The notes beneath the pieces were generated by a model. It saw nothing but the letters and a program-made list of their open reading frames with translations, had not been told where the DNA came from and did not search any database. Positions 2,812 through 34,737 of a stretch of DNA of 36,056 nt are shown here, piece after piece; positions within the stretch are counted from its first letter, which is position 1; each line of letters starts with the position of its first letter. A program made the position numbers and the translations under genes. The stretch is from IMG/VR virus record IMGVR_UViG_3300021579_000394, positions 1 to 36,056 of that record. One strand, 5' to 3'. This DNA is from a virus.

Positions 2812-5429
2812 CGCATGGCTCCTGCGGCGGGGTTCAACCCATAGCGACGCTCAAGGGTTGGTGCAATCCCCGTGCCCTGACCAATCGATCGGGACATGCG
2901 CGCTTCAATCTGCTCCACGATGATGTCTAGACGCATGGAGCCATCCGCTTGTTGAGAAGACTGCACACGCGCATCCACGCCTGAAGCGTTGTTGATCACG
3001 TTCACAGCCACACGCACTTGAGGTTGGTTCTTAGAAGAAAGCGCCCCACCCAATGCGCGCATCTGACCGGGCGTGAACACCGCCTCACCCGGCTGCGCGA
3101 TGATGGGCACCTCCCCTTCGACCAAACCACCCGTGTGATAACGAGTAGCACCTGCGAAGTTGTGAAGCCCCACAGATCGGGAGGCCAAACTGTCCGATCC
3201 AATCAGCCCGCCCGTGTGCGCCACAGCGACCAAGGGATTCACGAGATCGGTTGCTCCTATCGGAACGATGCTGCCGCCTGGCGTAGGCGTGGGTGTTGAA
3301 CCCAAGCCTCCTAGCCATCCAGCCAATGGCAAAGTGACCATGCGCTGAATCTGAATGCGCACCAGATCAGCAATGATAGAGTTGGCCAAGCTGCTGAAGT
3401 CGAGCTTGCCCGTAGTCACGAACTGAACGAGCGCATCCTCCATGCCTTTGAAAGCAGAAGTCACCGCCCGTTCAGCTTGTTTGGCAGCGTTGGTGGAATC
3501 CTCCACATAGCTGCGAACCGATGAGCGCATGCCGTAATCAAAGCTACGTTGGTACTCCGCATTGGCACGAGCCAAGTCAACAATCACAGGCAACTGACGT
3601 GACAACGCATGATTGATGAGCTCGATGGCTTCAGCCTTTAGCCCGGGGTCTGTGATTTGATCCGCTTGCCTTCGCGCAGCGTAGGCAGCTTTCTCCAGAT
3701 CAAAGCGAACTTGCATGCCTGCACGTTCGACATCCCCCACATCGAGCATCTCTCGCTTGAGCACCAGCTCCTCTTGTTTGAGTCGGTTGTTGCCGATGTA
3801 GCCTTCGGTGATCTGATGGACCTTTTGGAGCTCTTTCTCGTACTCATCGAACTTCTTGTCAGAGACCTTTTGCTTCTCCATGGCCTCAATGACCTGGATG
3901 TACTTCTCAGCCTCCGCCCGAACACCCGCGTAGCCCTTTTTCTCCAAATCCAGCGCTTTGGCTCTGAGCTCAGCGGCTTCGCCACCGGTCACACGCATTG
4001 AGCGTTGCTCGAGTTGTTTTAAGAACTGCAGACCTTCATTGTTCTTGTCGAAGCCTGAGAGGTCCATCCCGGTGGGAGCCTTTCTGGGCATCTTGGGCAA
4101 GAACTCGTCATAGATCTTTTGAACTTGTGCAGCTTGCTCAGCTGTATCAAGCACAAACTTCTGGCCCATCACCCGAACGGTTCGACGTTGCTCATCGAAG
4201 AACTTCTCAATCGAGTTCACATAACCGGGGTTGTCATTGATGCGCGCCAGTCTCTCGTTAGCTGATTCAACAAACTTGTCACGTGCGCCTTGAAGCTTGG
4301 CAATCTCCGCATCAATCTGCTGTTCGTTGTAGCCCATGGACTTCATCGAGCGCAGCATGTCGCTTTTCATCCATGTTTCGACGTCCTTGCTCACCACAGA
4401 CAAACTGTCAAACGGCTGAGAGATCACCCGCTTGGCCAGCACAGCCGACTCAGCAATGAAACCAAGCCCCTTGGCCACATCCTCAAGGTAATTGAGCACT
4501 TGCTGGCGGTTGTTGCTGATTGCAATCAGCTCACTGCTAAAACCACCAGTCTCTGTTTTGGCAAGAAAGATGTGCTCAGTCAAATCGGCCAAGATCGGAA
4601 TGAAGGCCGAGCCAATTTGACGCTGCACACCTTCGTTGACCGCGTGCAGTCGCTTCAGGTTGTCATTGAACTCTTCCGATGCCCGTGCAGCATCTGCAGA
4701 CATCACCAAGCCTAAGCGCTTGGCTTCTTCCATCATGGCCGTGATCCCGTCCCGCCCTTGGTTGAGCATCGGGATCATGTCCAGACCATTCTTGCCAAAT
4801 AGCTTCACCGCAAGGGCAGCTTTTTCGGCGCTGTCTGGCATGGCCGAAAACTTGTCGGCAAGATCGAGCAAAACCTCTTCGGTCGGGCGAATTTGGTTAT
4901 TCGCATCCAATGCCGAAATACCAAACGCGCGCAACGCAGCGCTGCCCTCACCGCCTTTTACTTTTGCGTCAAACATGGCGGTCGACAAGAACTTCAAAGC
5001 CTTGGTCAAACTCTCCGTGCTGACATCAGACAACTCAGACACATACAGGAGTGCAGACAACGCCTCCACTGACACCGCTGTTTTTTGAGAGAGCTTGTTC
5101 AGTTCTTCACCAACTTCGGCCACTGGCACGATCAGCTGGTGCATGCCGTAGCCAGCTGCAGCGATAGAGGCTCCGGCAATCAAACCTGCGGGGCCGAGTT
5201 TTCCGAGCACCGACCCAAGGAGCCCAAGACGCGAGGTCGCATCTTCCATTTGCGCGAATGCATCGTTGGCCGCTTTGGAGACGATCTGCAATCCTGCTGA
5301 GGCAGGTTGCGATGCGGCCTCAATGCGCTTGAGAGACTTCTCTCCCGCCTCTCCAACATCGGAGAGCTCAGCCTTGACCTTGCCGCCATCCACGACCGAG
5401 AGTCGAATTGCGAGATTGCGTTCAGCCAT
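2808..5429 (-). CDS. Tail tape measure protein
   Basis: About 873 residues from the ATG at 5429, chosen because AGGTG lies six bases upstream; an in-frame GTG three codons earlier (5438) is the alternative. The N-terminus (ERNLAIRLSVVDGGKVKAEL) and the following helical region fit prophage tail-length tape measure proteins, with a small hydrophobic stretch LGKLGPAGLIAGASIAAAGYG near residues 80-100. The C-terminal part (ALVQFVTTGKLDFSSLANSI) is the signature of the lambda tape measure C-terminal domain. This protein sets tail length and is usually threaded inside the tail tube. Its predicted length of roughly 870 residues is similar to lambda gpH. Its start overlaps the end of the frameshifted chaperone frame, as in lambda G/GT/H. 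Confidence 0.92.
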   Translation of the reverse strand: MAERNLAIRLSVVDGGKVKAELSDVGEAGEKSLKRIEAASQPASAGLQIVSKAANDAFAQMEDATSRLGLLGSVLGKLGPAGLIAGASIAAAGYGMHQLIVPVAEVGEELNKLSQKTAVSVEALSALLYVSELSDVSTESLTKALKFLSTAMFDAKVKGGEGSAALRAFGISALDANNQIRPTEEVLLDLADKFSAMPDSAEKAALAVKLFGKNGLDMIPMLNQGRDGITAMMEEAKRLGLVMSADAARASEEFNDNLKRLHAVNEGVQRQIGSAFIPILADLTEHIFLAKTETGGFSSELIAISNNRQQVLNYLEDVAKGLGFIAESAVLAKRVISQPFDSLSVVSKDVETWMKSDMLRSMKSMGYNEQQIDAEIAKLQGARDKFVESANERLARINDNPGYVNSIEKFFDEQRRTVRVMGQKFVLDTAEQAAQVQKIYDEFLPKMPRKAPTGMDLSGFDKNNEGLQFLKQLEQRSMRVTGGEAAELRAKALDLEKKGYAGVRAEAEKYIQVIEAMEKQKVSDKKFDEYEKELQKVHQITEGYIGNNRLKQEELVLKREMLDVGDVERAGMQVRFDLEKAAYAARRQADQITDPGLKAEAIELINHALSRQLPVIVDLARANAEYQRSFDYGMRSSVRSYVEDSTNAAKQAERAVTSAFKGMEDALVQFVTTGKLDFSSLANSIIADLVRIQIQRMVTLPLAGWLGGLGSTPTPTPGGSIVPIGATDLVNPLVAVAHTGGLIGSDSLASRSVGLHNFAGATRYHTGGLVEGEVPIIAQPGEAVFTPGQMRALGGALSSKNQPQVRVAVNVINNASGVDARVQSSQQADGSMRLDIIVEQIEARMSRSIGQGTGIAPTLERRYGLNPAAGAMR

Positions 5430-16654: not shown

Positions 16655-17152
16655 ATGACCACCACACTCACAGCCACCCAACAAGCCATCCTTGCCCACG
16701 CCCATCAACACACCGACGGAAAGATTGAATGGTTCCCCGAGAACATCAAAGGCGGCGCACGACAAAAGGTGCTCGACGGTTTGTTGAACCGCGCACTCAT
16801 CACCAAGAGCGCCAGCAACTGGTTCATTGCAGCCGAGGGCTACGACGCGCTTGGTGTCCCACGCAAAGGCGCTGAAAAAGCATCAGTGCCAGATTTGACT
16901 GATGCGCCAGCCATCACCAAAACACCGCGCGCTCGAGAAAAAAGCAAGCAAGCGCAAATGATTGAGTTGCTCAAGCGCCCCGACGGTGCAACCTTGAATC
17001 AATTGGTTGAAGCCACTGGCTGGCAATCACACACGGTGCGGGGTGCGATGGCTGGATCCCTTAAGAAGAAACTGGGACTCACCATCACCTCAGAAAAGAT
17101 CACAGGCCAAGAACGCACATACCGCATTTACAGCGAAGGAGTTGCAGCATGA
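16655..17152 (+). CDS. DUF3489-containing protein
   Basis: A 165-residue protein with GGAG before its ATG. The C-terminal half (SKQAQMIELLKRPDGATLNQ, then LVEATGWQSHTVRGAMAGSL and KKKLGLTITSEK) is the DUF3489 domain, a winged-helix-like fold. The N-terminal half (TATQQAILAHAHQHTDGKIE, then GGARQKVLDGLLNRALI) also looks like a helical DNA-binding module. The family is common in phages and mobile elements, often near DUF2924 and serine recombinases; here those lie 17 kb away. A regulatory role is an inference. Its stop overlaps the next start (ATGA). Confidence 0.85.
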   Translation: MTTTLTATQQAILAHAHQHTDGKIEWFPENIKGGARQKVLDGLLNRALITKSASNWFIAAEGYDALGVPRKGAEKASVPDLTDAPAITKTPRAREKSKQAQMIELLKRPDGATLNQLVEATGWQSHTVRGAMAGSLKKKLGLTITSEKITGQERTYRIYSEGVAA

Positions 17153-17508
17153 GCACCATGACCATCACGATCGAGCGCACACCCCGCACCTTGAACTTCG
17201 ATGGAAAACCAATCGAAGTTGAAGAGCTCAGCGTCGAGCTCCCCTTTGCACGCAAACCCTGCAGCCTCGATGAGGTAGGTGGCTACGGCAACTACAAAGT
17301 GCTCGTCACAGAAACCCGCGAGATGAGCCCCGAAGAGTTCGATGCTTTTGGTAGAACCCTTTTGAAGTCACGTGATTGGCTCGCAGGCAAAGGCGGCGGT
17401 ACTGGAGACGGATTCTTGTGCATTGAGATCAAAGCACCAGGTCGTCCCTATCTCTACGTCAACCCCGAAGGCGGGGACTATGCGCGCTACGTTGCGCGCT
17501 TGGGCTAA
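17149..17508 (+). CDS. Hypothetical phage protein
   Basis: A 119-residue protein, coupled to the DUF3489 gene by an ATGA overlap and preceded by AAGGAG eight bases upstream. It is mixed alpha/beta with conserved-looking Gly and Asp residues (DEVGGYGNYKVLVTETREMS; GKGGGTGDGFLCIEIKAPGR; PEGGDYARYVARLG). It has no signal peptide or membrane segment. I do not recognise the family. It ends the plus-strand operon and faces the HU gene, with a shared hairpin between them. Confidence 0.75.
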   Translation: MSTMTITIERTPRTLNFDGKPIEVEELSVELPFARKPCSLDEVGGYGNYKVLVTETREMSPEEFDAFGRTLLKSRDWLAGKGGGTGDGFLCIEIKAPGRPYLYVNPEGGDYARYVARLG

Positions 17509-17895: not shown

Positions 17896-19167
17896 TCAAT
17901 TCGCTAAAGGGTTTACTTCTAGAACTTGAGGGGTATCAAGGTCCGCCGAATCACTCCTATCAGGCTCAGCACGTTCAAGCACCGCCTTCTTGCCCGTGAA
18001 GTCTTCCCAGCGTTTGACGATGACATCGACAAACTTAGGATCCAACTCCATGAGTCGGGCATGTCGGTTCGTTTTTTCACAAGCAATTGCTGTGGTGCCT
18101 GAGCCACCGAACAAGTCGAGCACGATGTCTCGGCTCTTGGATGAGTTCTTCACTGCGCGTTCAACCAGCTCCACGGGCTTCATCGTGGGATGTAGGTCAT
18201 TGACACGAGGCTTGTTGTAAAACCAAACATCGGCTTGATCACGGTCGCCGCACCAGAAGTGATCTGAGCCCTGCTTCCAGCCGTAGAGGATGGGTTCGTA
18301 CTGGCGCTGATAGTCAGCGCGACCTAAAGTGAACGAGTTCTTCGCCCAAATCACAAAGGTCGACCATTTGCCGCCAGCATCGAGCCAAGCTTTTTGCAGG
18401 GTGTGCAACTCAGAAGAGCTCATACACACGTAGCAAGCCCCCTTGGTCATGATGAGTAAGTTCAGACAAGCGTCGTACAAGAACTTGTAGAACCCATCAC
18501 CCAATGCATCGTTAAGGATGCGGCGGTCTTTGCCGCGCATCTTGTCTTTGGCACTGTTGCCGTAGTCCACGTTGTAGGGCGGGTCTGTGAAAGCCATGTC
18601 GGCCAGTTGGCCATCCATGAGACGCTCTACATCCGAGAGCACCGTGGAATCACCACAAAGGAGGCGGTGGTTGCCGAGAATCCACAAGTCCCCAGGTCTG
18701 GAAACAGGATCTACTGGTGGTTCTGGGATTGCATCATCCTCGGTTAAACCACCGCCTTCATCTTCTGGACTGAGCAAGTCATCAATCTCTTCATCCGTGA
18801 ACCCCATGAGCGAGAGGTCGTAGTCAGCAGCTTGGAGCTCAGCCAACTCAAGCTTCAAAAGCTCTTGGTCCCAGCCAGCGTTTTCCGCAATACGGTTGTC
18901 GGCCAAGATGTAGGCCTTCTTTTGCTCTGGGGTCAGGTGCGCCAACTCGATAACAGGCACCTCTTTGAGGTCGAGTTTTCTGGCTGCCATCAAGCGGCCA
19001 TGGCCTGCAATGACGCCCCGCTCACCGTCTGTGAGGATGGGATTGGTCCAGCCATATTCGGCAATGGAAGCTGCAATCTGAGCGACTTGAGAATCGTTGT
19101 GCGTGCGGGCATTGCGGGCGTACGGGATGAGCGTATCAACCGCGACCATTCGGATCTCGGGTGTCAT
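17896..19167 (-). CDS. ParB-like/DNA N6-adenine or N4-cytosine methyltransferase fusion
   Basis: A 423-residue protein. Residues 5-90 form a ParB/sulfiredoxin-like domain (TLIPYARNARTHNDSQVAQI; GVIAGHGRLMAARKL), often fused to phage methyltransferases. The methylase has the catalytic motif DPPYN (195-199) before the S-adenosylmethionine motif FGGSGTT (353-359), the beta-class order; TDPPYN is commonest in adenine N6 enzymes. HPTMKPVELVERAVKNS precedes the SAM motif. No restriction endonuclease partner is adjacent, so it is an orphan methylase that may protect phage DNA or regulate genes. The start ATG has AAGG upstream. Target sequence cannot be predicted. Confidence 0.92.
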   Translation of the reverse strand: MTPEIRMVAVDTLIPYARNARTHNDSQVAQIAASIAEYGWTNPILTDGERGVIAGHGRLMAARKLDLKEVPVIELAHLTPEQKKAYILADNRIAENAGWDQELLKLELAELQAADYDLSLMGFTDEEIDDLLSPEDEGGGLTEDDAIPEPPVDPVSRPGDLWILGNHRLLCGDSTVLSDVERLMDGQLADMAFTDPPYNVDYGNSAKDKMRGKDRRILNDALGDGFYKFLYDACLNLLIMTKGACYVCMSSSELHTLQKAWLDAGGKWSTFVIWAKNSFTLGRADYQRQYEPILYGWKQGSDHFWCGDRDQADVWFYNKPRVNDLHPTMKPVELVERAVKNSSKSRDIVLDLFGGSGTTAIACEKTNRHARLMELDPKFVDVIVKRWEDFTGKKAVLERAEPDRSDSADLDTPQVLEVNPLAN

Positions 19168-20598: not shown

Positions 20599-22917
20599 CT
20601 AGTTGTCGTTGTAGGGATAGCTGCGGACAGGGAAATTCGTAGCCTGTTTGAGGTCAATTCCAGAAAAGCCACGTACCCCACTGGAGTTACGCCACTTGTC
20701 GAAACGACGCGTGATGAGCGCATCAGAAAAACGACGTTGAGTGCCAACAAACTCACCGCTCATCTCGGCCCATTGCTTCCAATCGTTAAAGAGCGTGACC
20801 GTGAGGGCTTTGTCGTTCGCTCCAAGCTTGCAGCGCTCATCGAGCCAACGTCCCATGGCGTCTTCTGCCTCGAAATACTCATCCGTGGCACTAGTCACTG
20901 AAAGCGGTTGTTTCAACCCTTGTTGTTGCCAAAGCAGACAGCCATGAAGCGCCCAAGCCAAGATGCCATCTCGCTCTGAAAGCAACTTCTCCGTGAGCAA
21001 GGGATCACGCTTCTCAGGTGGCACCGTGATCGTGAAAGGAATCAAGTGCATGCGACGCCGCATCGCCTCATCGATGTTGCGAATGGCTGGCTTATGGTTG
21101 CCTGCAATCAGGAGCTTGAACTGGGGCGGGTAAGTGAAGAAGTCTTGGTGCATCAGACGAGCTGTCACCAAGTCACCGCCTGTGATGGCTTTGATCTTGG
21201 ATTCGTTCCAACGCCTGCCCTGCTCGGTTTCTGTGGCCGATACAAAGCGTGCACCGCGCAAACCTGCAAGATCTGTTGGGTGACGGTCAGAGCGCGTTTC
21301 CATGAACGTGTCCATGGGTGCGTTGGCCGCGTAGTCACCCAAGATGGTTGAGATGACGTTGACGAACACGGACTTGCCGTTTGCGCCAGTGCCGTATAAG
21401 AAGAACAAGGCGTGCGTGCTGATATCTCCCGTGAGGCAGTAACCCACCACACGTTGCAAGTACAGCTGCAACTCTTTGTCACCACCCGTGACGTTCTCAA
21501 GAAAAGTAGCCCACACCGGGCTTTCACCCTTTGGTGATGCGGTGGTGACCTTAGTCATGCGGCGATCGCGCCTGTGTGGCCCCATGCCGCCTCTTTTGAG
21601 GTCAATGATTCCACCCGGGGTATTGAGCAACCAAGGATCGGCATCCCACTCTTCAACGGTTGCACTGTGGCGTGGGTCTGAACGCACGATGCGTTCAATT
21701 GCGGACATGGTTCCCGAGCTTGCCAACCTAGCTTTGAGCTTAGGCGTATCGGCTTTGTAGGAGGCCGCACGACAAACCGTGCGACTGAGATGCTGCACGT
21801 AGAGCGACTTGTCAACATTCCAACGCACGCCGTTCCAAACTAACCACTTGCCCCATGGTGAGCAATACCGCCAATCCTCGCCAAACTGGCGCGTAAAAGC
21901 CATGGCAAGACCATCCTCGGTGGTGTAGTCCAGCCCATCCACGATGTCAGAGGCTGTGTTCTCTTCAGCCTGACGCACGACAGGCATGCGGTCACCTGCA
22001 GCCAGAAAACCTGCGACATCAAATCCTTCGATACGCGCATCGGCCACATCCCAACCATCAGGTTTGTCTTCTGGAGGCTGGAGGATTGCGCAACTGATAG
22101 CACCTGCGAGCAAGATGGCCTGTGACGCACGGTCCGCATAGTCCCAGCCCGGTTTGTCGCGGTCTGGCCAGATGAGCACGTGCTTACCAGCCAGAGGTGT
22201 CCAGTCGGTTTTATCCACGGGCGCGTTGGCACCGTGCATGGCCGTGGTGGCGCACACACCCAACTCAATGAGCGCTTGTGCACACTTCTCCCCCTCGACC
22301 AGCACAATTCGCTCGGCGTACGAAATTCCGGGTTGATTGAACAGAGGTCTGGGATCAGGAGGAGCCATCTTGCGCCGCTTCACATCCCATGGGCGAAACT
22401 CTTTCTTGCCGGGCTCTGGGTCGTAGCGGTAGACCACTGCTATCAATTTTCCAGAAGCATCTTGATAGTCCCACTTAGCAGTGGCTGGCCCCAGCTCATC
22501 GACAGCTGGTGTCTTGGTTTTTTCTCTTGTCGAAGTGCCCTGCGGCAGTGAATCGACACGCCCAAGCAAGTCCTTGGCGCGCTTGAGTACGTCAGGAAAA
22601 TGCGTCTGGATGTTGAGTTGGTAGTGACGCGCGATCAAGTCGAAGATGTCACCACCCTCGCCAGTTGCACGATCGGTCCACAGTCCAGCCTTGGAGCCTG
22701 AGAGCACCAACTCCAAACTGTCACCCGGACCACCCATCACATCACCCACCAGATACTTGGTGTTGCGGCGTTTACCGGCTGGCCATATCTCAGCGATGAG
22801 AGTGCTTAGCCGTTCAAGCAGGGCTTGTCGAATTTCATCTTTTTCTCGCGCGCTGTCTGTTTTAGCTGCGTTGAATTTGCGAAATGCTTCTTGCGCAGGA
22901 TCGTTGAAGTCAAGCAT
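20599..22917 (-). CDS. Toprim-containing primase-helicase, P4/D5 family
   Basis: A 772-residue protein from the ATG at 22917 (GAGGTG upstream). The frame runs a further 73 codons upstream, but that part overlaps the preceding gene and is not protein-like. Residues near 195-290 form a toprim-like domain (IVLVEGEKCAQALIELG ... HVLIWPDRDKPGWDYA). After a D5_N-type linker, a superfamily 3 helicase follows: Walker A GTGANGKS near residue 507, FVSATETEQGRRWNE, and LLIAGNHKPAIRNIDEAMRR (sensor and arginine-finger region). It would prime and unwind phage DNA. The order toprim plus D5 helicase is that of phage/plasmid primases. Confidence 0.9.
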   Translation of the reverse strand: MLDFNDPAQEAFRKFNAAKTDSAREKDEIRQALLERLSTLIAEIWPAGKRRNTKYLVGDVMGGPGDSLELVLSGSKAGLWTDRATGEGGDIFDLIARHYQLNIQTHFPDVLKRAKDLLGRVDSLPQGTSTREKTKTPAVDELGPATAKWDYQDASGKLIAVVYRYDPEPGKKEFRPWDVKRRKMAPPDPRPLFNQPGISYAERIVLVEGEKCAQALIELGVCATTAMHGANAPVDKTDWTPLAGKHVLIWPDRDKPGWDYADRASQAILLAGAISCAILQPPEDKPDGWDVADARIEGFDVAGFLAAGDRMPVVRQAEENTASDIVDGLDYTTEDGLAMAFTRQFGEDWRYCSPWGKWLVWNGVRWNVDKSLYVQHLSRTVCRAASYKADTPKLKARLASSGTMSAIERIVRSDPRHSATVEEWDADPWLLNTPGGIIDLKRGGMGPHRRDRRMTKVTTASPKGESPVWATFLENVTGGDKELQLYLQRVVGYCLTGDISTHALFFLYGTGANGKSVFVNVISTILGDYAANAPMDTFMETRSDRHPTDLAGLRGARFVSATETEQGRRWNESKIKAITGGDLVTARLMHQDFFTYPPQFKLLIAGNHKPAIRNIDEAMRRRMHLIPFTITVPPEKRDPLLTEKLLSERDGILAWALHGCLLWQQQGLKQPLSVTSATDEYFEAEDAMGRWLDERCKLGANDKALTVTLFNDWKQWAEMSGEFVGTQRRFSDALITRRFDKWRNSSGVRGFSGIDLKQATNFPVRSYPYNDN

Positions 22918-23215
22918 GTGCCACCTCACTTCCCTGAGCTTGTCGTGAGGCCTGCGATGCAATTTGGTCTTGAGCTTCTTTTGCTTGTGCCGCCAACAAC
23001 TCACCGAGTTGTGCGTGCCAGACACGTAATTCGGCCAAGCGATAGCGCACCAACTTGTTGATGTAGTAATGCGGGATCTGGAGCTTCTTACGCTTGTAGG
23101 GATTGCGGAAAAAGTAGAACGGCAGGTTGAACGCAACTGCAGCTTGCTCGGACGAGAGCATGGTCTCGAAAGTGTTTGTGTTGCCCTGTGGATTTCGGTT
23201 TGTTTGATTTGTCAT
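22910..23215 (-). CDS. Hypothetical phage protein, possible DNA-binding
   Basis: A 101-residue protein overlapping the primase start by eight bases. After a Thr/Asn-rich start it reads LSSEQAAVAFNLPFYFFRNP, then YKRKKLQIPHYYINKLVRYR and a long helix LAELRVWHAQLGELLAAQAK. The first half resembles a helix-turn-helix of excisionase-like type with basic and aromatic residues; the second half is a coiled-coil-like helix. GGGAGAA lies nine bases upstream of the ATG, directly after a strong hairpin. Partner of the primase is possible, but unproven. Confidence 0.7.
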   Translation of the reverse strand: MTNQTNRNPQGNTNTFETMLSSEQAAVAFNLPFYFFRNPYKRKKLQIPHYYINKLVRYRLAELRVWHAQLGELLAAQAKEAQDQIASQASRQAQGSEVAHA

Positions 23216-25019: not shown

Positions 25020-25292
25020 TTAGCTTGCGACACGTTGCGAAGTCGAGATGTGCTGCACGAAGTTCTCGTACGCCTCGATGGCGTTGACGGTGTACGTCAC
25101 GCGTTTGCCAAGCTTGAGGTAGTGAGGACCACGACCTTCGGTTCGCCAACGCTGCAGGGTCTTAGGGCTCATGCCCCAACGGGAGGCTAAATCGGCTTCC
25201 GTGAAAACCATGCGCTCGGCTGGAAGGGATTCATGAGCTGGGGAGCCCAGAGGGGAAGTGCGCCCGATTCGGGCTGGTGTTGTAGACCGCAT
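25020..25292 (-). CDS. Small HTH DNA-binding protein, MerR/excisionase-like
   Basis: A 90-residue protein, AAAGGAG six bases before the ATG. Residues 28-65 (MVFTEADLASRWGMSPKTLQ RWRTEGRGPHYLKLGKRVTY) are a clear HTH_17/AlpA-type winged helix; the end IEAYENFVQHISTS is the expected C-terminal helix. Such proteins act as excisionases, transcription factors or replication initiators of phages. It is the first gene of the early operon, next to the putative promoter at 25434-25462, so it may regulate that operon or excision. Confidence 0.82.
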   Translation of the reverse strand: MRSTTPARIGRTSPLGSPAHESLPAERMVFTEADLASRWGMSPKTLQRWRTEGRGPHYLKLGKRVTYTVNAIEAYENFVQHISTSQRVAS

Positions 25293-25534: not shown

Positions 25535-25582
25535 TTGCACCTTGTCCGAAATGTGTATATACTTTTCGGACAAGGAATGACT
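25535..25582 (+). promoter_or_regulatory. Promoter with 12-base palindrome of the AbiE operon
   Basis: CCTTGTCCGAAA (25540-25551), 12 bases, then TTTCGGACAAGG (25564-25575) is a perfect inverted repeat. A -10-like TATACT (25558-25563) lies in the spacer and a weak -35 TTGCAC (25535-25540) lies 17 bases upstream, so the repeat covers the promoter. AAGGA in its right arm also serves as the ribosome binding site for ATG 25583. AbiEi antitoxins are known to repress their own operon by binding inverted repeats. Confidence 0.7.
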
Positions 25583-26257
25583 ATGTTCATCTCAACGAAC
25601 GCCCTTAACTCACAGGTGATGGACCGAATCACACAAGCACCGGACACAAAAGTGTGGACTCCGGGGGACTTCCTCGACCTAGGGAAACGGGATGCTGTGG
25701 ACAAAGCTTTGCAAAGACTCGTAGGAAGTGACGCTCTTCGCCGGGTTGATCGCGGCCTCTATGACAGACCAAGAATCAACTCACTAACGCGTCGCCCCAC
25801 TCCCCCAGACTATCGAAGCGTCATCGATGCAGTCGGCAGGCGTGATCAAGTCCGTTTACTCATTGATGGAATGACTGCGGCCAATGATCTCGGGCTAACT
25901 AATGCTGTACCCGGACAGGTAATCGTGCACACCGACGGTCGTCTGAGGTCAATCAAACTAGACAACCTAACAGTTCAATTCAAAGTAACTGCCCCAAGTA
26001 AGCTCTACTGGGCAGGACGTCCAGCAATGAAGGTCGTTCAATCTCTCTATTGGCTCAAAGATGCAATAAGAACAAGCTCGTCAGCAGATCAGGACATCAT
26101 CCAAATCAAACTATCACGCGTGCTTCAAGATCCTCAATCCAAAGCGATCAAAGATGATTTGGCGAAGGGTATGTACACCGTCCCCGTGTGGATGCAGAAG
26201 TGGCTTAGTAAGCTACTAACTCAGTCGCAACACGACTCCACCGGAGTGACCGTATGA
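25583..26257 (+). CDS. abiEi: AbiEi-type antitoxin/repressor (DUF6088-like)
   Basis: A 224-residue protein from ATG 25583, six bases after AAGGA. In-frame ATGs at 25577 and 25535 fall within the palindrome or before the promoter. The N-terminal winged helix (VWTPGDFLDLGKRDAVDKAL, then QRLVGSDALRRVDRGLYDRP) is typical of DUF6088/AbiEi antitoxins; YWAGRPAMKVVQSLYWLKDA follows in the second domain. In type IV AbiE systems it represses the operon and counteracts the toxin without direct binding. It overlaps the toxin start by four bases (ATGA). Its base content is more AT-rich than the late genes. Confidence 0.88.
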   Translation: MFISTNALNSQVMDRITQAPDTKVWTPGDFLDLGKRDAVDKALQRLVGSDALRRVDRGLYDRPRINSLTRRPTPPDYRSVIDAVGRRDQVRLLIDGMTAANDLGLTNAVPGQVIVHTDGRLRSIKLDNLTVQFKVTAPSKLYWAGRPAMKVVQSLYWLKDAIRTSSSADQDIIQIKLSRVLQDPQSKAIKDDLAKGMYTVPVWMQKWLSKLLTQSQHDSTGVTV

Positions 26258-27303
26258 ATCCCGATTTCCTGAAAATCATCAGCGCCTCCGAACAAGATCG
26301 ACAAGACCTTTTTCTAGCAACAGCCAATCGACTGGGTACGCCAATTCAAAACGTTGAAAAGGACTTCTGGGTCACTTGGACACTAGACCTCCTATTCAAT
26401 GGTCGTCAAGCAGCAGAACCTCGGCTTTTGTTCAAAGGGGGAACCTCGCTGTCAAAAGCCTACGGATTGATTTCCAGATTTTCAGAGGACATCGATATCA
26501 CGGTCTTCAGAGAAGACATCGGGCAACACATTGAAGTCGAAAATTTAGAAGGCTTGTCTGGGAAAAAGCAACGACAGATTCTTGACGAAATCAAAGAAGC
26601 TTGCCAAAGCTACATTCAAGGTCCACTACTAAGCCGTCTTAACGGGCAGATTCAGGAAGTTTTTGAAGAAGCAGGGATTTCCATCACAGAACCCATTGTC
26701 GTTAGTGATCCTGATGACCCCGATCAGCAGACATTGCTTGTTCGTTACCCAACTGTCAACACAGACCACAACGGCTATATCAAACCAACAGTCAAGATTG
26801 AAGCAGGGGCGAAGTCTGCCCTAGATCCTCACAAAGAGGTGACGATCAAACCATACCTTTCCGATGATTTGCCGGATACTGATTTGGTTGTCGCCAACGT
26901 TGTAACGATTGATGCTGAACGAACTTTTTGGGACAAAGTCGTCATTCTTCACGGCCTTCGCAAATGGCATGACAACCGTGGAGAAGTTCGACAACAGGGA
27001 AATCGTGTCTCGCGACACTACTACGACCTCTATAGACTACTCGACTCAGAGGCAGGTTTAAATGCCATACAAAACCCAGCATTAGGCATTGACTGCGTTC
27101 GTCATGCGTTGATGTTTTTCAATCGTCCAGACTACGATTTACAAAGTGCGCGAAAAGGGTCGTTTGTCATCATCCCCACAGGTGGGATGGTTGAAGAGCT
27201 CAAACGAGACTATCAAGCGATGATTGGAATGATCTTCGGCGAAGTGCCAGATTTTTCGACTGTACTGGGTGCAATTGAAGAACTTGAGAAACGAATCAAT
27301 TAA
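26254..27303 (+). CDS. abiEii: AbiEii/AbiGii nucleotidyltransferase toxin
   Basis: A 349-residue protein. The nucleotidyltransferase motif is present: GGTSLSKAYGL (62-72) and then SEDIDI with Asp79 and Asp81, the metal-binding pair. KDFWVTWTLDLLF (36-48) and ERTFWDKVVILHGLRKWHD (near 220-240) are typical of the AbiEii family, as is RHYYDLYRLL further on. AbiEii toxins transfer nucleotides to tRNA or related targets and block growth, giving abortive phage infection. It is coupled to the antitoxin by an ATGA overlap. As prophage cargo it would protect the lysogen from other phages or stabilise the element. Confidence 0.9.
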   Translation: MNPDFLKIISASEQDRQDLFLATANRLGTPIQNVEKDFWVTWTLDLLFNGRQAAEPRLLFKGGTSLSKAYGLISRFSEDIDITVFREDIGQHIEVENLEGLSGKKQRQILDEIKEACQSYIQGPLLSRLNGQIQEVFEEAGISITEPIVVSDPDDPDQQTLLVRYPTVNTDHNGYIKPTVKIEAGAKSALDPHKEVTIKPYLSDDLPDTDLVVANVVTIDAERTFWDKVVILHGLRKWHDNRGEVRQQGNRVSRHYYDLYRLLDSEAGLNAIQNPALGIDCVRHALMFFNRPDYDLQSARKGSFVIIPTGGMVEELKRDYQAMIGMIFGEVPDFSTVLGAIEELEKRIN

Positions 27304-28922: not shown

Positions 28923-30308
28923 ATGCAAAAAAAATTCTTGAGGAAACGTCCTGCGCAAAAGCGTTTAACAAATGCCGAAAAGAAAGAGCGCGCAGACTTC
29001 GCCGAGCGAGAAGAACATGCTCGGGAGATGCTGAAAGACCAGATAGGTCGTGCTATCGCACTTCGCTCGAAGGAGCGTGAATTCCACGGTCTAGATCGAG
29101 AGTTCTTGTTTTACCAGGAAGACATGCTTCGCCTGTACGACAGGGCAAAAGACTCAAAGCATCCACGAGATATCGGATTGGCTCGTGAGCAGATCGTCCG
29201 GCGATTTCTGGTCGATACGGGACTGTTACCGGCACGCTATGCTGCATCGGACAGGAGTGTTCGTGTCGCATCAACGACGGGGCACGTCAGTGGAGAACTG
29301 GACATCCTCTTCTACGACCCATTGGACTCGGTCTCGTTGATGTGTCGTGAAAATACCTTTCAGGTTCTTCCGGTCGAAAGCACATACGGCACCATACAGG
29401 TCAAATCGAAAGCGACCCGACAGGACATCCGTGATGGATTGGAGAACATCGCCAGCTATAAAAAGCTTCATCGAATTTCAACGGGGGGCTGGACTGTATT
29501 TTCAGGAAAACCCAAGAGCCAGCAAGGCTTTGGAATACTATTCGCATTCGATACTGACCTGGACTGGATTGATCTAGTCAATGAGGTCAAAGCTTTCGCT
29601 CAAGACAACCCCAAGCATCTATGGTGCAACGCTGTTTTTGTGCTGACCAAGGGCTTCGTTCTGTACGGAACTGAGAATCGCGCAGCCTTCCTGAATGACG
29701 ACATTAGTGCGATCACCAATCTTCAAATGCAAGGACGCCCAGACCGAACGGGTCTCTGCTTCTACGATCTGTATTCTGTATTGCTTAACCTATTGAAGAA
29801 CACAGACGTTCTGCCCCCACCGGTAGAGAGTTATTTTCAACTCCCGCTTGTTGCAGGAGAGCACTCTTACAAGTATTCGATGGGGCAGTTCGCCGAATTC
29901 GGAACATGCGAAACTCACGGCGACTTTCCACGAAAAATGACCGAAGAAAAACTGGTTGAAGTCATAGAGTGGTGCCAAACGGCAGAACCGATAAATTGGA
30001 TCAGAGCCACGGATATCGCATATGGAAGGTCTGGTGATAACACTGAGGCATACAAAAGGCAGCCTGGTGATGTTCGGATATACAACCCAGATGCCCTACC
30101 CTTTTCCGACATCCTTGTGATGGACCGTCCGTTTATGCGCGAGGGAGAACAGATCATCACCAAAGCACTCTCCTTCGACTCGATCGAAACCGCAGGAATT
30201 ACCATCTGGATACCATACGTCTATGAAGTCACCCGTGGCATCATAAATTCCTGCCCAAAATGTAAGCAAAAGAAGCAGCAAGCCCCTGTCCCTGCTGGTG
30301 CTGCATGA
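28923..30308 (+). CDS. DUF6602-like PD-(D/E)xK-type nuclease
   Basis: A 461-residue protein. After a highly charged helical start (NAEKKERADFAEREEHAREM), residues 88-170 hold REQIVRRFLVDTGLLP, SGELDILFYDP with Asp127, and VESTYGTIQVKS with Gln159-Val-Lys161. This is a PD-(D/E)xK-type arrangement with a QxK variant and is the pattern of DUF6602 proteins often seen in defence islands. A long C-terminal domain follows, ending with CPKC (Zn-like). No good ribosome binding site is visible before the ATG, so the start is uncertain. Nuclease activity is inferred from motif only. Confidence 0.65.
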   Translation: MQKKFLRKRPAQKRLTNAEKKERADFAEREEHAREMLKDQIGRAIALRSKEREFHGLDREFLFYQEDMLRLYDRAKDSKHPRDIGLAREQIVRRFLVDTGLLPARYAASDRSVRVASTTGHVSGELDILFYDPLDSVSLMCRENTFQVLPVESTYGTIQVKSKATRQDIRDGLENIASYKKLHRISTGGWTVFSGKPKSQQGFGILFAFDTDLDWIDLVNEVKAFAQDNPKHLWCNAVFVLTKGFVLYGTENRAAFLNDDISAITNLQMQGRPDRTGLCFYDLYSVLLNLLKNTDVLPPPVESYFQLPLVAGEHSYKYSMGQFAEFGTCETHGDFPRKMTEEKLVEVIEWCQTAEPINWIRATDIAYGRSGDNTEAYKRQPGDVRIYNPDALPFSDILVMDRPFMREGEQIITKALSFDSIETAGITIWIPYVYEVTRGIINSCPKCKQKKQQAPVPAGAA

Positions 30309-30402: not shown

Positions 30403-30813
30403 TTAGACCTCAATTGCTAGGTCACCAATCTGCACACCAACGAAGGGTTTGCAGACAGGATCTGCTGGCTTGATTGACTCGGTAACAGTTTCTTGCGGGC
30501 CAAACATTTGTGCAATTCCTCCGCCTCTTCCACCTGTACTGACCTTCTTTATCTCCTTGATATCGGGCTGTTTCTCGTATTCGGCAGTTTCTAACGTAGA
30601 CATTCGCTCTTGTACGTGGGTAACACGGCCCTTGCCACGAACAACCTCTAATTCGCCGAGCGCCTCGTGAGTCTCTGGATCGATGATGACCTCACCTAGG
30701 CCAAGGATTAGAAATTGTTTACCAACACGAACATCCCTGTCCAAGCCCGCGTTGATCACGACAGTGTATTTGTCTATAACCTTAACGATTTTCGCAAAGT
30801 ATTTTTGAGCCAT
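30403..30813 (-). CDS. Unknown protein, last gene of a four-gene operon
   Basis: A 136-residue protein whose ATG is one base after the stop of the upstream gene. The first 70 residues are beta-rich: FAKIVKVIDKYTVVINAGLD, RDVRVGKQFLILGLG, DPETHEALGELEVVRGKGRV. This resembles the small barrel domain at the end of FlgT/CsgG-type and secretion-related proteins (VVIN.G...GV.VG..F....G), though this is only a fold-level impression. The remainder is Gly-rich (STGGRGGGIAQMFG). It has no signal peptide. I cannot name the family. Coupling implies joint action with the membrane protein. Confidence 0.6.
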   Translation of the reverse strand: MAQKYFAKIVKVIDKYTVVINAGLDRDVRVGKQFLILGLGEVIIDPETHEALGELEVVRGKGRVTHVQERMSTLETAEYEKQPDIKEIKKVSTGGRGGGIAQMFGPQETVTESIKPADPVCKPFVGVQIGDLAIEV

Positions 30814-30814
30814 T

Positions 30815-31534
30815 TCAATTACCTGTGTTCGAAATATTAGTCAGCGCGTCAATCGGTACGACTGGTCTAATGACAAGACTTGTCAAAAAATCAGACGAGG
30901 TCGAAGGCGAGTTTTGGCCAAGGAAGTTGCCCTGAATTTTGATTTGTATGAACTTTTCTTGAACGATATGGACATAGCCAATCCACGCAAGAGTGTCCAC
31001 CTCATCCTGTTTAATGTAGCAACCTACAACAATGTTGTTCAGGAAATTGTCATTTCGACGTATGACCAATATCTGCTTCTCAGGCAGATACTTTATTGGA
31101 ACTTCAAACGGCGGAGCGGGGCGTTTTTCGTGGTGCAGGTCATAGACAACCTTGAGCAGTACGAGTACCAAAGAGAGTGCTAGCCAGACAGTCAAGAGAA
31201 GCCACTTGACTGATATTTGACTTGAGGTATCGACAAACAGTTGTACAAAACCAGACAGAAAGCCTAGTGCACCAACGGCCAAAGATAGCCCATTGAAACT
31301 GAACGTGGCATCAGACAATCTTGTTTTCATGCTACGAGGATACTCGACGAACGTTCGTATTGAATCATCGCCAGTGTGACGAAAAGATTCTACAGTCCAC
31401 CGAAAGCCGCTTCCACAGAATATTAGCCTATATTGAGCGAATACTCGCAACAGATAGAAGGCTAGAGAACCTAATAGAGAACTAGATGGGGATGTAACAA
31501 TATATGAACCAATCAAAACGATTGAAAATAGCAC
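30815..31534 (-). CDS. Unknown membrane protein, third gene of the operon
   Basis: A 239-residue protein. Hydrophobic segments at residues 1-40 (LFSIVLIGSYIVTS ... LLGSLAFYLLRVFAQ), 80-102 (LSLAVGALGFLSGFVQLFVD) and 109-130 (WLLLTVWLALSLVLVLLKVV) suggest three or so membrane spans, followed by a soluble beta-rich domain of about 100 residues (EVPIKYLPEKQILVIRRNDN and on). The start is a GTG at 31534, overlapping the upstream gene by 22 bases, with no clear ribosome binding site, so translation may be by reinitiation. Family not recognised. It could be a membrane effector in the operon; this is an inference. Confidence 0.55.
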   Translation of the reverse strand: MLFSIVLIGSYIVTSPSSSLLGSLAFYLLRVFAQYRLIFCGSGFRWTVESFRHTGDDSIRTFVEYPRSMKTRLSDATFSFNGLSLAVGALGFLSGFVQLFVDTSSQISVKWLLLTVWLALSLVLVLLKVVYDLHHEKRPAPPFEVPIKYLPEKQILVIRRNDNFLNNIVVGCYIKQDEVDTLAWIGYVHIVQEKFIQIKIQGNFLGQNSPSTSSDFLTSLVIRPVVPIDALTNISNTGN

Positions 31535-32469
31535 AAGGAGTACAAGCCTAATCGTCGATTTCGAGCAACTAGCGTTTCGTAGGCGTGCATGGGGCCTTCA
31601 TATATTGGATCACCTTTGTTCACAGCCTTGACCTTAAACACATCAATCAGCTTGTCGCTGGAAAGATGCGCCTTACTCATGATCGTTTCAGCTGACTGCG
31701 GCTGCCCCTGATATCCCCAGAGCACCGCAAAGATTGCTGCCTGCGCCGCAGTCAACCGAATAGGATCAGTTGACCACTCCGGCATATGAACCCATTCAAA
31801 AGTCTCAGAGAACGGTCCATGCACAGCTATCGATTTTGGCTTAACCGCAAGATTGAGTTCAACGCCCCCCTCACCCACGAACCTCAGTCCACTGCCGTGG
31901 ATCGCAAAGCGATCTTCAAGGTGCCACCAAGTAGCGGTGCCAGAAAGCGGATCAGAGGAGATTCGACCTAACGGTCGTGGCGTGATCACCCAACTGTCTG
32001 GACGAGGTGTTGTTCCGTGAAATAAATGCAACGCGTTGACCAAAACAAGCTCAATGCGTTGAGCTAACAAGACTGCTCGTTTTTTATAGATCCCAATCTG
32101 CCAGACCCCCTCGTAAAGTTTTTCGACAGCAATGTGTGCAGGAATGTTCAATGCCGCACGAAGTTTTCTGATCATCCATTCGGTGTCTATGGCCCATTTG
32201 CGCTGCTCGGACGGGTCCATTTTGTATGGCCCGCAGTCTGGACACTGAACATACATCTCACCATCGCATCGAAACACAGGCCCCCGGTGCAAGCCACAAA
32301 ATGAGCAACTTGCGTAGCGTGAATCGAATGGCCCCGGCACCACCACTTTGAGCTCACTCAAGAGCCTCAGTTCATTGACTTGCGTTTTAGGTAAAGAACG
32401 CTCGTAGGAATATCCACCTCGGGTCAGAAGCAAGGAAGCCAAAGCCATCGCTTTTCTATTCGCAGGCAT
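31513..32469 (-). CDS. Unknown zinc-ribbon protein with C-terminal HTH-like region
   Basis: A 318-residue protein, AAGGA before its ATG. Cys55/58 and Cys76/79 (CSFC ... CPDC) form a probable zinc ribbon in the N-terminal third. The central part is helical then beta-rich with no known motif. The C-terminal 80 residues (LTAAQAAIFAVLWGYQGQPQ, SAETIMSKAHLSSDKLID, LVARNRRLGLYSLCY) look like a winged helix-turn-helix. It follows the 413-residue gene by 11 bases. Zinc ribbon plus HTH suggests DNA binding or regulation. No named family is recognised. Confidence 0.65.
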   Translation of the reverse strand: MPANRKAMALASLLLTRGGYSYERSLPKTQVNELRLLSELKVVVPGPFDSRYASCSFCGLHRGPVFRCDGEMYVQCPDCGPYKMDPSEQRKWAIDTEWMIRKLRAALNIPAHIAVEKLYEGVWQIGIYKKRAVLLAQRIELVLVNALHLFHGTTPRPDSWVITPRPLGRISSDPLSGTATWWHLEDRFAIHGSGLRFVGEGGVELNLAVKPKSIAVHGPFSETFEWVHMPEWSTDPIRLTAAQAAIFAVLWGYQGQPQSAETIMSKAHLSSDKLIDVFKVKAVNKGDPIYEGPMHAYETLVARNRRLGLYSLCYFQSF

Positions 32470-32479
32470 ATGAGATCCT

Positions 32480-33721
32480 TCACTCGAACAAGCTCATTGA
32501 CTGGCTACCCCCCGTTGTCGCTGCGTCATAGAAGTTCAACGCCTGCTTAGGCTCAAGAATTCCAAGATGCACAAGATAGCCTTCGAGCTGGGTACGCAAC
32601 TTTTCATCGAACTTGTGTAAGTTCAAACGTCCCTTGCTCGTCACCTCTACGCTCACGAGTGGGCATCGTGACTTCCCCTGTGCAGGAGCCATAAAGAGAT
32701 TCAGCGTTGCAGCGTGAATTTCCCAACCACGACTGAGTGGGTTTTCAATCTGAAAGTACGCACCGATCAAATCCGTCACACATTGACGATCCGTCGAGCC
32801 ACTGGCTGTGCATTCAATTTTCAGCCGCTCACATGGGCTTAGTAAATGCAAGCTCTTCACTTGCAGCCCCACAAAGCCATCCTCGAATGCCTGTGGAATT
32901 TGCAAGCCCAGACGAAGTTTTGAGAGATCAAGCACCGGGCGTTGAATCCGCTGCGCCTCTGCACTGACGCCCAACATATGGGTGGCAAATGCCTCGCACA
33001 GCATGCTGTGATATTTCGCACCACCCCTGATGATGGTTCGTGCAACACCTTTGATCTGCGAATACTCCAGCACCATGTGAATGTTTGGACTTCCCACGCG
33101 ACGCTGCAACTGAGTCCCCTCGAACTCCAGACGTGCAGTCGCAAGGTCTTTGGCGTGAATCGTGATCAACTGCGTACCCTGCGAACGATCCAGCACGTTG
33201 ACTACGCACACCTCACCACATCCCAGCTCACGTTGGTAGAAACCTTTGATGGCATCGCAAAAATTCGCGATTGATCTCTCATCACGATTAACTTCACGAC
33301 GTAGTCCTAGGTCATGTTGTTGAGCCTGCTGACTATGCTGATCCAGATATTCAATCTCTGCAGCAGCTTCGAATAAAGCAGGATGGTTGACATAGAGCCA
33401 GAAGGACCGATGCAAATCGCTCTTACAGGCAATGAGTCCCACCAGTTCATTGGGTTTGTCATGCGTTGCCTGAAACATGGCTTGTTTGCCCAAGGGATGC
33501 GCAAGTGTTGAACTTGCATGCAACCCTGCAATGATTCGATCACGCTTGATCGTGTTTTGGTAGTTCTGAATTAACTTGACCAGCGCACGAGATGTGTGAG
33601 TGTCGTCTTGCCACGCCCACCCTTCTGGCAGGGGTAGTTCATGACGAACCATGAATGATTTGAGCGTCTCATCAACGGGTAAACAGAGCAAGATGTCTGC
33701 ATATGTTTGGGGCTTACTCAC
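32480..33721 (-). CDS. Unknown protein, first gene of SOS-box-linked operon
   Basis: A 413-residue protein from a GTG at 33721 with AAGGAG five bases upstream. I see no signal peptide, membrane segment or standard enzyme motif. Features: RALVKLIQNYQNTIKRDRII (helical, basic) near residues 45-65, an acidic helical region YLDQHSQQAQQHDLGLRREV, and a beta-rich C-terminal domain, ending with CPLVSVEVTSKGRLNLHKFD and KLRTQLEGYLVHLG. It is the first gene of the operon, reading away from the LexA-box region, which points to damage-inducible expression. Family not recognised, function unknown. Confidence 0.65.
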   Translation of the reverse strand: MSKPQTYADILLCLPVDETLKSFMVRHELPLPEGWAWQDDTHTSRALVKLIQNYQNTIKRDRIIAGLHASSTLAHPLGKQAMFQATHDKPNELVGLIACKSDLHRSFWLYVNHPALFEAAAEIEYLDQHSQQAQQHDLGLRREVNRDERSIANFCDAIKGFYQRELGCGEVCVVNVLDRSQGTQLITIHAKDLATARLEFEGTQLQRRVGSPNIHMVLEYSQIKGVARTIIRGGAKYHSMLCEAFATHMLGVSAEAQRIQRPVLDLSKLRLGLQIPQAFEDGFVGLQVKSLHLLSPCERLKIECTASGSTDRQCVTDLIGAYFQIENPLSRGWEIHAATLNLFMAPAQGKSRCPLVSVEVTSKGRLNLHKFDEKLRTQLEGYLVHLGILEPKQALNFYDAATTGGSQSMSLFE

Positions 33722-33814
33722 GCTGTCTCCTTCTTCTTTTTATTAGGGGAAATCGCCCCCCCCCAATCGGTCACCTTGCGAGTGGTGTCAATTTTGGTTC
33801 TAGTTGCGATTAGA

Positions 33815-33830
33815 CTGGATAAATATACAG
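33815..33830. promoter_or_regulatory. LexA/SOS box
   Basis: CTG (33815-33817), ten bases rich in A and T (GATAAATATA), then CAG (33828-33830). Over 20 bases (33813-33832) it matches 17 positions of the E. coli LexA operator. Beta-proteobacterial LexA uses a similar CTG-N10-CAG site. It overlaps the -10 of the minus-strand promoter and lies 183 bases before the plus-strand small gene, so it can control both divergent units. Confidence 0.75.
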
Positions 33831-33849
33831 TATTTAGTGAATGCATCAA
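33822..33849 (-). promoter_or_regulatory. Probable promoter of the four-gene operon
   Basis: On the minus strand TTGATG (33849-33844), a 16-base spacer, then TATATT (33827-33822). The -10 lies within the LexA box. The start would be near 33815, about 95 bases before the GTG at 33721. The leader includes nine C residues on the plus strand (33756-33764), hence nine G in the transcript. Confidence 0.5.
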
Positions 33850-34012
33850 AACCACATCCAAAAGCTCCGAAATTACGATAGGTTCGTGTTCACAGCCCAT
33901 GTTTACCGGCCTTTCAAGCCCATTGACCCTCCTATCCCCGTTATCTAGAGTTACGCGTTAAGGGGAGCAGCCCTACGATTTCAGGTCAGTTTTAGCTAAC
34001 CACAACCTAGCC

Positions 34013-34267
34013 ATGAAATCACCACAACTTCCCGCCTCTGCCATCGTTTATCGCCCTCGATCAAACGGACAGCCGGAAAAGAGCAAGCACATCACTTTGG
34101 ACAAGGTCACGGAACTCATCGCGCACGCCGCGGTCATGACCAAAGATGATCTAGTACAAGCCTCAAAGAGTCAGATTTATGCCACTGATAGAGATGAGTT
34201 TGTGGACTTATGTGCCCACCAGAGCGTCAATACGAATTCCTCAACAGATATAGGAGTTCGCTCGTGA
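34013..34267 (+). CDS. Small hypothetical protein upstream of DUF2924
   Basis: An 84-residue protein, its stop overlapping the start of the DUF2924 gene (GTGA). It has a basic start (SAIVYRPRSNGQPEKSKHIT) and a helical centre LDKVTELIAHAAVMTKDDLV, ending in Ser/Asn-rich sequence. No ribosome binding site of quality is visible, but the coupling and placement in the recombinase unit support it. I do not recognise the family. It might help control the recombinase. Confidence 0.55.
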   Translation: MKSPQLPASAIVYRPRSNGQPEKSKHITLDKVTELIAHAAVMTKDDLVQASKSQIYATDRDEFVDLCAHQSVNTNSSTDIGVRS

Positions 34268-34737
34268 CTGACGACATCGCAACAGAAGATGCCTTGCCTT
34301 TGACCACCAAGGTTGGCAAGCAACTGCATTCACTTTCAAGTCTGCCAATACAAGAGTTCTGGACGCTGTGGGACAAGCACTTCAAAGATCGCCCTAAACA
34401 CCCCCATCGCAAACAACTGGAATCGCGCCTAGCGTATCGGCTTCAGGAAATTGCCGATGGTGGTCTCCCCCCAAAGACCCGCAACCTACTCGAAGACATC
34501 GGAGAGCGACGTTCCAAGATCAAAACCAGTAAAAGCCTCACCATTACCCTATTGCCGGGAACCGTTTTGATCCGAGAGTTTGACGGAATCGACTACCGCG
34601 TCACAGTCGCGATGGATGGTCGTTTTGAATTCGATGGCCACAAATACAAATCGCTATCCGCTATTGCAAAACAAATCACAGGGACCCAATGGTCAGGCCC
34701 TGTTTTTTTCGGCTTAAAACAAGGTAACTCCAAATGA
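34264..34737 (+). CDS. DUF2924-containing protein
   Basis: A 157-residue protein from a GTG at 34264 with TAGGAG eight bases upstream. The typical DUF2924 pattern is visible: LHSLSSLPIQEFWTLWDKHF, RKQLESRLAYRLQEIADGGL, then TLLPGTVLIREFDGIDYRVT and KSLSAIAKQITGTQWSGPVF. DUF2924 genes regularly sit directly upstream of serine recombinases in proteobacterial mobile elements, as here, where its end overlaps the recombinase start by four bases. It may be an accessory factor of recombination; the mechanism is unknown. Confidence 0.88.
   Translation: MTDDIATEDALPLTTKVGKQLHSLSSLPIQEFWTLWDKHFKDRPKHPHRKQLESRLAYRLQEIADGGLPPKTRNLLEDIGERRSKIKTSKSLTITLLPGTVLIREFDGIDYRVTVAMDGRFEFDGHKYKSLSAIAKQITGTQWSGPVFFGLKQGNSK

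Follow-up and report, generated by a model that had tools for sequence, protein, structure and literature searches.

The DNA analysed here (the window, 36,056 nucleotides in full) comes from a temperate tailed phage that resides as a prophage in Limnohabitans-type Comamonadaceae, and is recorded as a virus sequence that ends at the stop codon of a recombinase gene. Close to that end, two gene units diverge from a single intergenic region (Table 1). One runs from the small protein h1 through a DUF2924 protein to the recombinase, and the other begins with g1 and g2. The intergenic region contains a predicted LexA (SOS) operator, a promoter directed at g1 and a second conserved stretch nearer to h1.

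Table 1. Genes and sites at the switch locus and in the early region of the window
Feature	Position	Strand	Remark
D5-type primase/helicase	20599..23136	-	downstream part of early region
Excisionase-like HTH_17 protein (xis)	25020..25292	-	directly after g2 in cargo-free relatives
g3 + g4	30403..31534	-	window-specific cargo downstream of g2
g2	31513..32469	-	318 aa; two CxxC pairs; conserved in both clades
g1	32480..33721	-	413 aa, phrog_37634; first gene of predicted LexA-controlled early operon
LexA (SOS) operator, predicted	33813..33832	.	host-matrix score and conservation
g1 early promoter, predicted	33822..33849	-	-35 TTGATG, 16 bp spacer, -10 TATATT within operator
Second conserved intergenic stretch near h1	33936..33981	.	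AAAACACGTTAC...TACGATTT in relatives
h1, small protein	34013..34267	+	recombinase side
DUF2924 protein	34210..34737	+	domain match
Large serine recombinase, phage integrase	34734..36056	+	Resolvase + Recombinase domains

The 20-mer that makes up the predicted operator, GACTGGATAAATATACAGTA, agrees with the E. coli consensus TACTGTATATATATACAGTA at 17 of 20 positions, and its 16-bp core (33815-33830) reads CTGTATATTTATCCAG on the strand of g1 (minus). The CTG-N10-CAG frame by itself occurs at chance level, with 16 instances in the window against 14.9 expected. When the A/T core is included and up to three mismatches to CTGTATATATATACAG are allowed, the window contains one match against 0.01 expected, and it is thus the A/T-rich core rather than the frame that makes this box unusual. 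A LexA matrix was trained on chromosomal SOS sites of Limnohabitans-type hosts, located upstream of lexA, umuDC, Y-family polymerases and one radical-SAM gene, with phage sites excluded. On this host-only matrix the box scores 25.7 bits and the second-best site in the window 10.4, and 4 Mb of simulated Markov sequence contained no site scoring at least 23.7 bits. An earlier note on this DNA had described a LexA/SOS box with CTG-N10-CAG at 33815-33830 and 17 of 20 operator-like positions; coordinates and count were both reproduced, and scoring the site against the host motif, a check that the note had proposed, places it far above background. The identity of the box is borne out by this score, by its conservation in relatives and by its match to a host umuD box.

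The comparison with host sites, in which the genome-wide ranking is based on pattern searches and selected stretches, points the same way. In 367 kb of sequence from hosts and prophages, the sites within 4 bits are exclusively boxes of the phage family or the umuD box. The umuD gene of Limnohabitans sp. JirII-31 is preceded by TACTGTATATTTATCCAGCA, which is also the box of the JirII-31 prophage and of several contigs closest to the window. Boxes such as AACTGTATTTTTAACCAGCT, often paired, are found in the host lexA promoters of the relatives, and other near-consensus host sites are located upstream of genes for UmuD-type S24 proteins and Y-family polymerases and of the radical-SAM gene; a loose host pattern, CTGT-N9-CAG, was uninformative. 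A LexA DNA-binding domain and RecA are encoded in 10 of 10 host genomes of relatives, the S24 domain of LexA is present in the four host genomes searched for it, and visual inspection of the host LexA proteins shows that the Ala-Gly cleavage site and the Ser/Lys pair are retained. Judged by its sequence, the site at 33813-33832 is almost certainly an operator for host LexA. In JirII-31, umuDC resides about 0.5 kb past the prophage recombinase (L124:9854-11562, G001:C42:89854-91562), with a LexA box that is the same as that of the prophage.

The box contains the -10 hexamer of the minus-strand promoter TTGATG-N16-TATATT (33849-33822). In relatives the g1 promoter has the form TTGACA-N16-TATATT, with the -35 TTGACA in nearly all, and TATATT lies inside the box in window and relatives alike, so that the overlap claimed in the earlier note is seen in both. 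The box also occupies the sole intergenic region separating the divergent units, which agrees with the proposal of a single control region common to both. The further suggestion that both units are coupled to DNA damage fares well for the operon, whose promoter carries the box, and less well for the recombinase side, where no conserved promoter overlapping the box was found in that orientation. Some 180 bp separate the box from the nearest gene of the recombinase unit, and the sole promoter-like match in that direction (33923-33951, plus strand) lies about 90 bp past the box. The second conserved stretch, near h1, may control the recombinase side or be related to an att site. Control by LexA in both directions, tying the recombinase to the SOS response, would be an addition to the explanation favoured below rather than its opposite; this second stretch and the shared intergenic region speak for it, the missing overlapping promoter and the distance of the candidate speak against it, and on balance it appears unlikely.

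Relatives of g1 number 33 in viral contigs and 19 in bacterial genomes, to which a profile search added more, and the bacterial ones are mostly in Limnohabitans and other Comamonadaceae/Burkholderiales. The g1 protein has no match among 50,697 phage and 72,556 plasmid records, and DNA searches of the phage and plasmid collections returned matches to the recombinase side only. Within the clade of the window (clade A), the LexA box is present at 19 bits or more in 36 of the 38 loci with upstream sequence, 105-127 bp before g1. The two exceptions are L046, in which CTG has become TTG and the recombinase is broken too, and L011, in which one arm is lost. In the conservation profile computed from the 20 sequences left after 90% dereplication, the box is the best-conserved 16-column stretch of the intergenic region (0.97 versus a mean of 0.70). 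All six bases of the CTG and CAG arms are invariant in this set, and only the middle of the box is needed for the -10. There is one LexA operator per prophage region.

The order of the genes gives an indication of what this promoter serves. Clade A loci are arranged as recombinase, DUF2924 and h1 and, divergently, g1, g2, variable cargo, an excisionase-like gene and primase. In L019 the genes g1, g2 and xis are consecutive and primase lies further on; since g2 adjoins xis there, g1 opens the early operon, and because in relatives excisionase-like and primase genes come after g1-g2, the g1 promoter is predicted to be the early lytic promoter. What the earlier note called an unknown operon forms, on gene order, the first part of the early lytic operon. 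Its description as a four-gene operon stands for g1 and g2, which are conserved, and not for g3 and g4, for which the 52 related loci gave no match. The window carries an oppositely oriented cargo block between g1-g4 and xis/primase. The cargo includes, at 25535-27303, a toxin-antitoxin pair of AbiEi-like (DUF6088) and AbiEii proteins, with a DUF6602 gene nearby (28923-30308); cargo content varies among relatives. Elsewhere, counter-oriented small genes at 16655-17508 (a DUF3489 protein and its partner) are kept within the phage family, and a DNA methylase at 17896-19167 (N6_N4_Mtase, with a weak ParB-like N-terminus) is conserved in all four of the host prophage regions that were compared (85-95% identity).

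The first Foldseek match in the PDB to an AlphaFold2 model of g1 (pLDDT 74) is E. coli RdgC (E 1.9e-5), at TM scores of only 0.25-0.38, followed by kinetochore proteins of the CENP-N/Iml3 type, and some viral matches carry the annotation RdgC or recombination-associated. Membership of the RdgC family is unsupported by sequence (no Pfam match; hhalign probability 0.4%), so that the fold match alone remains. The lambda RexA structure paper describes homology between RexA and RdgC and the same fold in Iml3/Chl4, and states that RexA pushes the lambda switch towards the lytic state and that RdgC reduces RecA-dependent LexA cleavage (PMC11077077). Judging from its model, g1 may resemble RdgC/RexA-fold DNA-binding proteins: RdgC comes first among its PDB matches, together with kinetochore relatives of that fold, but g1 has no sequence-profile match, its model is of moderate quality, and it stands in a predicted LexA-controlled early operon. 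Because the TM scores are low and the sequence profiles gave no match, a feedback of g1 on RecA and LexA is only a lead. In g2, the two CxxC pairs probably form a zinc finger; its model returned weak winged-helix matches only (best E 0.057), and a C-terminal winged helix is possible.

A sister clade (clade B), whose g1 proteins are 51-62% identical, has the LexA box in none of its 19 loci. In 18 of these 19, an XRE repressor gene (HTH_3) followed by a gene for a Peptidase_M78 protein diverges from g1 at the very place that the box occupies in clade A, and no such pair was found beside g1 in clade A loci. In the clade B locus L144, an S24 peptidase-domain protein (4218-4949) is encoded immediately upstream of g1 in the same orientation. 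The XRE and M78 genes recall the ImmR/ImmA switch of ICEBs1-like elements, in which an XRE repressor is combined with an M78 protease; the window and clade A are without these genes at the switch and have the LexA operator instead, in line with the view of the earlier note that the box replaces a phage repressor switch. A single branch of the g1 tree, with support of 100/100, separates the box and repressor states; since this tree was rooted at its midpoint, the direction of the change (loss or gain of the repressor) is not proven. Searches of the window for HTH_3 and S24 gave no match, and neither domain was found within the JirII-31 and L. parvus prophage regions; in the regions of L. lacus and L. 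radicicola, HTH_3 genes occur some 40 kb from g1, close to the far prophage ends, which are unmapped. The DUF3489 protein (16655-17152) was rejected as a substitute repressor because both clades have it: clade B contigs carry it as well. It is doubtful that h1 is a LexA co-repressor specific to clade A, since a protein whose C-terminal motif is similar adjoins DUF2924 in the clade B locus L024, and no small co-repressor like the gp7 protein discussed below was recognised.

The reading that we favour, with a probability of roughly three in four, is that an operator for host LexA covers the -10 of the early lytic promoter, and that lysogeny is held by LexA and is SOS-induced, with no CI-type repressor at the switch. 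In a lysogen, LexA bound to the box would hide the -10 and keep g1-g2 silent, along with the genes for excision and replication further downstream (xis, primase). DNA damage would activate RecA and lead LexA to cleave itself, whereupon the g1 promoter would open and the prophage be induced. On entering an undamaged cell, the phage would meet resident LexA and be repressed immediately, and the lysogen would have no phage-specific immunity. From the sequence we infer binding of LexA, the strength of its repression, induction and the standing of LexA as the main lysogeny repressor. Several points weigh against a switch run by LexA only: there is a single box, whereas the tectivirus GIL01 needs the co-repressor gp7 for efficient repression by LexA (PMC4551915); a divergent or non-XRE repressor is conceivable, given the possible winged helix of g2 and the HTH_17 domain of xis; and there are the distant HTH_3 genes of L. 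lacus and L. radicicola and the damaged boxes of L011 and L046.

It could be that two locks operate, as in CTXphi, with lysogeny held by an unrecognised phage repressor (for instance g2, xis or a cargo gene) and LexA adding the timing by SOS. LexA is indeed paired with RstR in CTXphi (PMC3323433) and with gp7 in GIL01 (PMC4551915), and the weakly matched winged helix of g2 and the HTH_17 domain of xis offer candidates. However, g2 and xis occur as well in the clade with an XRE repressor of its own and are therefore not substitutes for it, XRE and S24 genes are absent from the window, and there is one operator per prophage region, with no other stretch as conserved beside the early promoter; this arrangement is distinctly less probable than control by LexA. 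Even less probable is that g1-g2 form an SOS-inducible accessory unit for DNA repair or the control of RecA, the lytic programme being started elsewhere. The RdgC/RexA-like model of g1 would suit such a role, as would the opposite-strand cargo block that parts g1-g4 from xis and primase in the window, but relatives of the L019 type have g1, g2 and xis in succession and then primase, and the sister clade has its repressor module at this very promoter. A chance A/T-rich palindrome around the -10, with no role for LexA, is scarcely credible: the CTG-N10-CAG frame is as frequent as expected and the -10 accounts for part of the conservation, but the CTG and CAG arms, which lie outside the -10, do not vary among the dereplicated sequences, the score far exceeds background, and the 20-mer of the nearest relatives is found upstream of umuD. 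This explanation was rejected on the three-mismatch count, the matrix score and the conservation of the arms.

Control of phage promoters by LexA has precedents. In GIL01, a tectivirus of Bacillus thuringiensis, host LexA and gp7 repress the phage promoter (PMC4551915, PMC6182141). That phage has in common with the family described here the action of host LexA on an early, lysogenic promoter and induction by SOS (PMC4551915, PMC6182141), both predicted in the present case, but it is linear and non-integrating, with several LexA boxes and gp7, whereas these are tailed, integrating phages with one operator and no recognised co-repressor. At the rstA/rstR promoter of CTXphi in Vibrio cholerae, LexA acts together with RstR (PMC3323433). 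There too a conserved host LexA site lies in a divergent phage promoter region and induction is by SOS, as predicted here; CTXphi, however, is filamentous and retains its own repressor beside LexA. SOS boxes in promoters have also been used by PSOSP to class prophages as SOS-dependent (PMC12527982), a prediction that likewise looks in prophage promoters for SOS boxes resembling those of the host but scores single prophages, whereas here module and operator are mutually exclusive across one phage family. In view of these precedents, a phage promoter run by LexA is itself already known. What is new is that a predicted LexA switch occurs in freshwater Comamonadaceae phages that are tailed and integrate, and that the exchange of one switch module for another can be seen.

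Two related copies per host are found in C1_MAG_00046 (L044, L045) and in HRSG-E13-bin-26 (L039, L043), for which MAG binning is a caveat, and L. lacus has one copy together with a remnant that retains the box; there is no comparison set for hosts with two copies. The double copies in the two MAGs and the case of L. lacus are consistent with absent phage-specific immunity. The L. lacus remnant (L131, G005:C27:10001-30000) is a decayed second prophage of the family with an intact LexA box and a broken g1. The MAG that holds L039 and L043 is labelled Akkermansia muciniphila and has Limnohabitans-type prophages; the label is probably wrong. A clade-wide picture, in which these phages would have no immunity repressor of their own, one LexA operator, no classical superinfection immunity and an RdgC/RexA-fold g1 that feeds back on RecA and LexA cleavage, can be put forward only tentatively and is, as a whole, somewhat doubtful.

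At one locus of one phage family, the lysogeny switch takes three forms: a repressor with a protease, an S24 protein and an operator for host LexA. This locus constitutes a natural experiment on temperate phages that outsource a key decision to the host. For Limnohabitans and its relatives, which are common freshwater bacteria, it predicts prophage induction that depends on the SOS response and weak superinfection immunity. If classical superinfection immunity is indeed missing, related copies could accumulate in one host.
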